Source of the DNA: Micromonospora siamensis
GTDB lineage: Bacteria; Actinomycetota; Actinomycetes; Mycobacteriales; Micromonosporaceae
DNA: 64,000 nt
Direction of reading: 5' to 3'
Assembly (NCBI RefSeq): GCF_900090305.1
Contig: NZ_LT607751.1
Span: forward strand, 4,588,001-4,652,000
The number at the start of each line of letters is the position of its first letter. Position 1 is the stretch's first letter. The position numbers and the translations under genes were made by a program. This document shows, in pieces, positions 14,233 to 19,431 of the stretch. Below the pieces are notes generated by a model. It searched no databases, had not been told where the DNA came from, and worked only from the letters and a program-made list of their open reading frames with translations.

Positions 14233-17200
14233 GTGATTGGGAACGACGCACGGCCGGTGGCGGCCGAATACCAGCGCACGATCAACGACTGGAACAACAC
14301 CACGACGGCACCACCCACCGACGACACCCCGACCACCCTGCCCGCACTCATCGAGGCCCAGACCCGACGCACCCCCGAGCACATCGCCGTCACCAGCAAC
14401 AGCGACCAACTCACCTACCACGCCCTCAACACCCACGCCAACCAACTCGCCCGACACCTCATCACCCACGGCGTCGGACCCGAATCCATCGTCGCCGTCT
14501 GCCTCCCCCGCAGCACCCACCTGCTCACCGCACTACTTGCCGTCCTCAAAACCGGCGCCGCATACCTACCCCTCGACCCCGACTACCCCGGCGCCCGAAC
14601 CGAATTCATGCTCCACGACGCCAACCCCACCTGCGTCATCACCGACACCCACACCGCGCCCCAACTCCCCACCACCACCCCCCACATCACCATCGACGAC
14701 CCCCACACCACCACCCACCAACCCACCACCAACCCCACCGACACCGACCGACACCAACCCCTCACCCCCACCCACCCCGCCTACGTCATCTACACCTCCG
14801 GCTCCACCGGAAAACCCAAAGGCGTCGTCATCACCCACGAAGGCATCGTCAACCGGCTGCGCTGGATGCAACACCAGTTCGGCATCGGGCCGGGCGACCG
14901 GATCATGCAGAAGACGCCCTACGGGTTCGACGTCTCCGTGTGGGAGCTGTTCTGGCCGCTGATGCAGGGAGCGGCCGTGGTGATGGCGCTACCGGGTGGC
15001 CATCGTGACCCGGCGTACCTGGCCAACGAGATCGAGCAGACCGGCACGGACATCGTCCACTTCGTGCCGTCAATGCTCCGGGAGTTCCTGGAGCATCCGG
15101 ACGCCGCCGACTGCCGGTCGCTGCGGCACATCGTCTGCAGCGGTGAGGCGCTTGGCGCGCACACGCTGCGCCGGGTACACGACATCCTGCCCGGCTGCAC
15201 GGTGACCAACCTCTACGGGCCGACCGAGGCGGCAGTGGATGTGACGTGCTGGGAGAGCGCCGGCGCGGCGTCCGTGCCGTCGTCGGTGCCGATCGGGCGT
15301 CCTGTGTGGAACACCCAGGTGTACGTCCTGGACAACCACACCCGCCCCGTACCCATCGGCACACCCGGAGAGCTCTACCTCGCCGGCATCCAACTCGCCC
15401 GCGGCTACCTCAACCGCCCCGCCCTCACCGCCGAACGATTCGTCGCCTCCCCCTACGGCCCACCCGGCGCCCGCATGTACCGCACCGGCGACCTCGTCCG
15501 CTGGAACCCCGACGGCACCCTCGAATACCTCGGACGCACCGACGACCAAGTCAAACTCCGCGGCTTCCGCATCGAACTCGGCGAAATCGAAACAACCCTC
15601 TGCACCCACCCCACCATCACCCACGCCGTCGCCATGGTCCGCGAAGACCAACCCGGCGACCAACGACTCGTCGCCTACCTCGTCCCCACCCCCGACACCA
15701 CCATCAACACCGACGACCTCCACCACCACCTCACCCAAACCCTGCCCGAGCACATGATCCCGACCACCTACCTCACCCTCACCCACCTCCCACTCACCGG
15801 CAACGGAAAACTCGACCGCAAAGCCCTACCCACACCCCCCACCACCACCGCCACCCCCCACGGCCGCCAACCCCGCACCCCCCACGAAAAAACCCTTTGC
15901 CAGCTCTACACCCAAATCCTCAACGTCCCACACATCACCATCGACGACAGCTTCTTCACCCTCGGCGGCCACTCACTACTCGCCACCCGACTCGCCGCCA
16001 AAATCCGCCACACCCTCGGCATCAACACCACCGTCCGCGACATCTTCGACCACCCCACCCCCGCCACCCTCGCCACCACACTCACCCACCAACACCCACA
16101 CCACCGCCCCACCCTCACCCCCCGCAACCGCACCACCACGGTTCCGATGTCCTTCGCGCAACGGCGCCTGTGGTTCCTCGATCAGCTCCAGGGAACCAGT
16201 GCCACCTACAACGTGCCCGTGGCGGTCCGGCTGACCGGCACGCTCGATCGGAGCGCGATGAGCGCGGCGCTGCGCGATGTCGTGGGCCGGCACGAGGTGC
16301 TACGAACCGTCCTGCGGGAGGTCGACGACGACGCCGTTCAGGTGGTGCTGCCGGTCGATTCGGCGGAGGTGCCGCTGACCTGTGAGCACGTGGACGTCGG
16401 CGAGTTCGGCGCGGCGCGGCGGCGGGCGTCGCGGCACCTCTTCCGGCTGGACACCGACGTCCCCGTCCGGGCGTTCCTGTTCTCCGCCAACGCGCCGGAG
16501 CTGGACGCGGAGCAGCAGGAGCACCTGCTCGTGCTGGTGGTCCACCACGTCGCCACCGACGGCTGGTCGCGTGGCCCGTTGCTGCGGGACCTGGCCCGGG
16601 CGTACGCCGCGCGGATCGCCGGGGGCGTGGCGGACTGGGCGCCGCTGCCGGTGCAGTACGCCGACTTCGCGCTGTGGCAGCAGGAGCTCCTCGGGGATCA
16701 CGAGGATCCGGACAGCCTGCAGGGCCGGCAACTGCGGTACTGGCGGGACCGGATGGCCGGGGCGCCGGCCGAGTTGAATCTGCCCCACGACCGGCCGCGG
16801 CCGCCCACCGCGAGCCACCGCGGCGGCGGCGTCAGGTTCAGCGTCTCACCGCAGCTGCACGCCCGGTTGTTGGCGCTCGCCGCCGAGTGCGACGCGACGC
16901 TGTTCATGGTCGTGCACGCTGCCATGGCTCTGCTGCTGTCGCGGCTGGGCGCCGGGGACGACGTGGTTCTGGGTACCCCGACGGCGGGCCGCTCGGACGA
17001 GGAGCTCGACGACCTGGTGGGGTTCTTCGTCAACACGCTCGTGCTGCGTACCGACCTGTCGGGTGATCCGACTTTCCGTGGCCTGGTGGAGCGGGTCCGG
17101 GCGGCCGACTCGGCGGCCTTCGCTCATCAGGACCTGCCCTTCGAGCATCTGGTGGAGCAGCTCAGCCCGGAGCGGTCGCAGGCCCGCCATCCGCTGTTCC

Positions 17201-19431: not shown

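Follow-up and report, generated by a model that had tools for sequence, protein, structure and literature searches.

The gene described here lies in a 64-kb window (64,000 nucleotides, i.e. the whole stretch of DNA that was analysed) and encodes a peptide synthetase with the domain order A-T-C-A-T. Pfam recognized a single C domain and a pair each of A and T domains in the open reading frame, and a 1724-aa database copy of the synthetase places the start at the GTG at 14257. The gene, its segments and the two genes directly downstream are as follows:

14233-19431, plus strand: peptide synthetase gene, A-T-C-A-T, 1732 aa (open reading frame list and Pfam)
14264-14853, plus strand: frame N, copy 1, from the start of the A domain to 30 nt past A3; GC skew -0.56, AT skew +0.46
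14854-15281, plus strand: core 1, 428 bp, predicted Ser-type pocket; GC skew 0.05
15282-16142, plus strand: frame C, copy 1, beginning shortly ahead of IGRPVWN and covering the C-terminal part of the A domain and the T domain, up to the T-C linker; GC skew -0.51, AT skew +0.34
16143-17521, plus strand: C domain lying between the A-T units, ordinary codon use, third-position G 0.49
17522-18111, plus strand: frame N, copy 2, an exact repeat of copy 1
18112-18551, plus strand: core 2, 440 bp, predicted remote Asp/Asn-type pocket; GC skew 0.10
18552-19412, plus strand: frame C, copy 2, an exact repeat of copy 1, ending 16 bp before the TGA at 19429-19431
19605-20201, plus strand: B12-binding protein, part of a two-part glutamate mutase (Pfam)
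20198-21568, plus strand: MutE, part of a two-part glutamate mutase (Pfam)

The gene directly upstream of the synthetase gene codes for a member of the dimethylargininase/DDAH family (PF19420; 13150-14103, plus strand). Within the synthetase cluster, between mutE and an FMN/glutamate-synthase-like gene, sits a frame of 337 aa that encodes a class II tRNA-synthetase domain of the D, K, N type (21565-22575, plus strand), which may be a recruited amino-acid-activating enzyme. The cluster is flanked by large SARP-type regulators with BTAD and NB-ARC domains (25959-28040 and 29993-33142, both minus strand), the latter carrying TPR repeats as well.

The full listing of exact direct repeats of at least 30 bp in the 64-kb window returned only two, i.e. 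590 bp (14264-14853 and 17522-18111) and 861 bp (15282-16142 and 18552-19412), exactly the blocks that the preliminary description had reported to flank cores of 428 and 440 bp; inverted exact 30-mers were not found in the window. Modules 1 and 2 are 100% identical in the frame segments vs 55% in a 390-nt core segment, and the complete lack of differences in 1451 frame bases puts the divergence of the frames below about 0.2% (95% upper bound, our own calculation). The inner edges of identity, said to lie just past A3 and just before IGRPVWN, were placed 30 nt past the end of the A3 motif and, by alignment, about 10 nt ahead of the IGRPVWN codons. On the outside, identity ends where the A-T unit ends, with unrelated sequence beyond: the left edge lies 31 bp past the start of the open reading frame (7 bp past the GTG at 14257) and the right one 16 bp ahead of the stop codon. 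Structure comparison confirmed ordinary A domains.

The preliminary description of the A-T units made no mention of strand skew, which is extreme in the frames and not in the cores: GC and AT skew per segment amount to -0.56/+0.46 and -0.51/+0.34 in the two frame segments, vs 0.05/-0.03 in core 1, 0.10/-0.09 in core 2 and 0.05/-0.17 in the C domain. In 200-bp windows, GC skew ranged from -0.35 to -0.76 and AT skew reached up to +0.6 within the frames, with GC skew mostly no more than 0.15 from zero in the cores, the C domain and the flanks. The frames are C-rich on the coding strand, and this extends to codons (third-position G 0.07 vs 0.49-0.53 in the remaining gene; Pro as CCC in 41/50 codons vs 9/45 in the cores and C domain; Leu as CTG in 4/51 vs 58/89) and to the protein, where residues move towards Thr, His, Pro, Asn and Gln. 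These five residues account for 45% of all residues in the N frame and for 38% in the C frame segment, compared with means of 19.6% and 18.1% among 280 A domains, of which the two window copies rank highest in both frame segments. The window cores are ordinary in this respect (22% and 18%; mean 20.6% in the same 280 A domains).

The substrate types assigned to the cores in the preliminary description, i.e. Ser for core 1 and Asp/Asn for core 2, fared unequally. A Ser type is plausible for core 1, whose pocket was read at what we take to be the relevant motif positions; it is 57.6% identical to another A domain of the same genome and, in a quick tree of 46 of the 280 A domains (all 24 of the genome and 22 chosen neighbours), it grouped with seven similar cores with a support of 99. 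Core 2 grouped with nine others, including Asn-type cores, also with a support of 99, yet it is a remote member of this Asp/Asn-type clade: its best identity in the A-domain survey was 38-39%, it is 31-44% identical to the other 119 among the 120 proteins listed, and its predicted pocket (first four positions, DLTK-) matches no code that can be named with certainty. No donor of core 2 was found, the best relatives among the matches listed being those of 31-44% identity. A single clade of core 1 and core 2 was rejected in the same tree (AU p 0.032). Of the separate phylogenies of frame and core that had been called for, that of the cores thus splits them into different supported clades; the frames are identical.

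Because genes for a B12-binding protein and MutE lie directly downstream, one guess for the substrate of core 2 is 3-methylaspartate, with the glutamate mutase encoded at 19605-21568 as its possible source. According to excerpts of PMC9113097, the glutamate mutase GlmA/GlmB provides 3-methylaspartate for friulimicin, and here, too, the B12-binding and MutE genes adjoin peptide synthetase genes; unlike in the friulimicin supply, the substrate of core 2 is a predicted one. A search of open-licence papers for one that names methylaspartate and glutamate mutase together with a nonribosomal adenylation domain returned none.

Two further genes of the genome carry a comparable arrangement, and the identity ends 9, 18 and 30 nt past A3 in the genes at 4.521-4.540 Mb, at 1.692-1.736 Mb and in the window, respectively. 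The first (minus strand, 3989-aa open frame, four modules) has 780 exact bp in common between modules 1 and 4, ending 9 nt past A3 and followed by unlike cores (0.60 identity) and then by 248 exact bp near A8. Its modules 2 and 3 form a 3169-bp exact tandem copy that includes the cores and has the opposite skew, and 210 bp of the A10-T region are identical across modules 1, 2 and 3. Module 1 therefore has the N frame and the A8-near stretch of module 4 and the A10-T stretch of modules 2 and 3. Both signs of skew occur in this gene, the frames of modules 1 and 4 being C-rich and the whole of modules 2 and 3 G-rich.

In the 4220-aa open frame at 1.692-1.736 Mb, modules 1 and 3 have 1944 exact bp in common, ending 18 nt past A3, then unlike sequence, then another 1725 exact bp. 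Moreover, 779 exact bp of module 1 recur in another gene of that cluster, and 373 bp of this stretch recur in module 3 too. The common N part of the A domain is unskewed (-0.12/+0.11); the skew sits in the C domain and in the part that comprises the C-terminal end of the A domain and T. The core of module 3, which is without the usual YGPTE and YRTGD, looks degenerate, and the frames of module 3 are identical to those of module 1. As a single module matches different partners exactly in its different stretches, one duplication is insufficient for these two genes, and repeated segmental copying can explain the patchwork.

The frame of the window and that of the 4.521-4.540 Mb gene are 73% identical in DNA. 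Kinship between them was considered and rejected: each has nearer protein neighbours elsewhere, so the likeness probably reflects mostly a common recoding. A landmark comparison of 191 A domains (168 pairs) gave four pairs with a common landmark; its motif filter dropped the 1.692-1.736 Mb pair and a Cys-type pair at 4.521-4.540 Mb, both of which were found through the exact-repeat listing. The 30 nt given for the window come from this landmark comparison; the A3 distances of the tract scan, in which the stretch of the window had been taken on the minus strand, are left aside.

Tracts of at least 200 bp and at least 95% identity were present in three of seven synthetase stretches of this genome, in none of 18 stretches taken from another six genomes within the genus, and in one of 73 named loci (L014), many of which are drafts of a quality that would conceal such repeats. 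The genus sample comprised 20 stretches (18 after merging) from six of the seven genomes searched and was picked by C-domain matches, i.e. it represents C-domain-matched stretches and not every synthetase gene of those genomes. Skewed 150-nt windows were concentrated in the tracts, both in this genome (312/607 inside vs 65/4581 outside) and in the other records (12/12 inside vs 1328/54046 outside), these windows overlapping one another and hence not being independent; stretches were merged, but L014 and L016 still overlap. The comparison of core and frame identity covered 209 A domains and 483 pairs after L001, L011, L012 and L013 had been dropped as repeats of the stretches of this genome, and some of its 18 listed pairs are duplicates or self-pairs, as L095 still overlapped the window.

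The idea that recoding spares the pocket as a general rule was rejected. Among 254 A domains of other genomes, 17 had a skewed N segment and 12 a skewed core, with skew in N but not in the core in nine vs the reverse in four (p 0.27). In addition, L035 (Streptomyces sp. NBC_00249; A3 ends at 848 and 8710) has two Asn-type cores that are almost identical and recoded, with Thr/His/Pro/Asn/Gln shares of 0.52 and 0.50, showing that recoding of a pocket can be this strong.

No close relative carrying the A-T-C-A-T gene was found among 300 genomes of the family and 160 of the genus. As a DNA probe, the C domain of the window had matches in 289 of the 300 family genomes, the best outside this genome being only pieces of 69-74% identity, and the N frame (E <= 1e-60) matched one of the 160 genus genomes, i.e. 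its own. As a protein, the C domain was at most 54% identical to any of the 73 named loci.

The preliminary description had left the choice between a core exchange and a gene conversion homogenizing everything except the pocket. With somewhat more confidence than doubt, we favour conversion over a recent core swap, i.e. gene conversion that keeps the A-T frames identical and leaves the cores alone, since the identical parts are skewed and recoded, both cores are ordinary, and frame patches are shared with different partners in two genes. Non-reciprocal copying between the repeats would keep both A-T units identical, and the copied stretches would be GRINS-like: their coding strand is rich in C, and codons and residues are displaced towards Thr, His, Pro, Asn and Gln. 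Copying would be bounded by the conserved A3 motif and by the IGRP/A5-A6 region, since the pockets differ too much for pairing there and since a run-through copy would alter the building block and be lost. Each module would thereby keep its own pocket, with the rest of the A-T unit evolving jointly. The halt point is where conserved A3 DNA yields to unlike cores. As to direction, the terminal T domain carries the T-C linker TPRNRTTTV without a C domain after it, a hint that module 2 received its copy from module 1, and an apparent C-A linker at the start of module 1 hints at the opposite.

The span of the tracts in relation to the substrate is as selection on the pocket predicts. Where the predicted substrate is the same (modules 2 and 3 at 4.521-4.540 Mb; L035), the common tract spans the core, and where the predicted substrates differ (the window; modules 1 and 4 at 4.521-4.540 Mb), it stops, this being a set of four pairs; whole-module duplication would carry the core along as well. 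Some points speak against conversion. Published natural events, as described in excerpts of PMC8097286, are mostly A-core exchanges; identity and skew do not fully coincide, the N part at 1.692-1.736 Mb being unskewed; and sparing of the core is no general rule in the 254 A domains elsewhere.

A recent duplication of the A-T unit, followed by replacement of one core through recombination at A3 and the IGRP region, is a possible but doubtful alternative. Exchange of the A core is the commonest natural event according to parts of PMC8097286, PMC7486941 and PMC9205934, which cite hormaomycin in actinobacteria, and the A3 region is the DNA most widely common to the frame and the other A domains of the genome, with short matches near positions 500-590 of the frame, so that it offers a natural crossing point. 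However, with unskewed cores in recoded frames both cores would need to be imports, neither being likely to be the former core of a recoded unit because both are of ordinary composition; the recoded A domain in L035, moreover, has a recoded core too. No donor of core 2 was found among the matches listed, and the two further genes would require several partial copyings in any case.

We consider it very unlikely that a frame copy was laid down twice or polished into identity during assembly. Mapping is indeed ambiguous within perfect repeats, but the genome assembled into a single contig of 6,250,119 bp, the two copies differ in their cores and in what adjoins them on every side, similar pairs of other lengths exist in two further genes, and polishing may remove a few differences but does not make frames. 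Plain duplication of the A-T unit with subsequent selection for divergence in the pocket alone would account for identical frames with different pockets, but it is already contradicted, and scarcely credible, given about 45% differing bases in the compared core segment against no change in 1451 frame bases, and the separation of the cores into distinct, supported clades (AU p 0.032). We give equally little credence to an independent recoding of the frames by a mutational or codon-level process with identity as its by-product: skew and identity occur together, and the 73% DNA likeness of the window and 4.521-4.540 Mb frames, which are not nearest in protein, looks like parallel recoding, but 1451 identical bases are impossible in this way, so that some copying is required and the process is already contradicted as the whole explanation.

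If conversion of the frames is true, it joins the skewed repeats of polyketide synthases with the core exchange of peptide synthetases, which the papers cited here treat separately. Frames would then be copyable between modules without functional harm, which bears on where these enzymes tolerate joints, and strand skew would flag recent copying and thus offer a cheap way to find joints in genomes. In three genes of one genome, the natural joints lie within 21 nt of one another relative to A3. It is tempting to speculate further, though we think it rather improbable, that peptide synthetases carry a recoding element, mobile by conversion, that rewrites A-T frames and keeps the pocket, with A3 as its fixed stop, so that several assembly lines of one genome converge on common frames with exchangeable cores; such an element would amount to a permanent natural means of exchanging building blocks. 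A search of open-licence papers for skewed repeats around adenylation cores found none, which is weak evidence of absence.

Of the known systems, natural recombination in peptide synthetases mostly targets the A core, as stated in excerpts of PMC8097286, with hormaomycin (actinobacteria), microcystin and desotamide/wollamide as examples in parts of PMC8097286, PMC7486941 and PMC9205934. Like the cases described there, the A domains of the window resemble each other except in the substrate-binding part, and the edges fall in the A2-A4 and A5-A6 regions. Core and frame differ in history (identical frames, cores in different supported clades), and the edges enclose the substrate-binding part within the A domain, at 30 nt past A3 and about 10 nt before IGRPVWN. 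Unlike here, the descriptions of A-core exchange in these excerpts are without skewed, recoded frames (PMC8097286, PMC7486941, PMC9205934). Moreover, no donor core was found among the matches listed in our case, and it is the frames that look moving and the cores resident.

The other system is GRINS, which the original abstract reportedly places in a wide variety of gene families. The window repeats resemble GRINS in being long, highly identical and strongly skewed. According to excerpts of PMC10394414, GRINS are regions of about 1 kb, often >90% identical to others elsewhere in the same assembly line, with a GC/TA skew >25%; parts of PMC9899208 give working thresholds of 500 bp, 80% identity and a skew of 0.15. 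In polyketide synthases they are proposed to drive diversification via gene conversion (excerpts of PMC10394414, PMC9899208 and PMC11907408) and said to have allowed the AT domains, which select the building block, to diversify late (PMC11907408, in part). For a promotion of gene conversion by the window frames, the patchwork sharing in the two further genes is indirect support. The survey in PMC10394414, as far as the excerpt states, concerned polyketide synthases or their hybrids with peptide synthetases, to which the A-T-C-A-T gene does not belong: Pfam found only A, T and C domains in it and in the next two minus-strand genes. The window frames are therefore termed GRINS-like, the gene being a pure peptide synthetase, and they also differ from described GRINS in their 100% identity and in that the pair brackets an unskewed specificity core. 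In length and identity (590 and 861 bp at 100%, against at least 500 bp and >80% in the same assembly line) and in skew magnitude (0.56/0.46 and 0.51/0.34), the window frames fit the signature of GRINS.
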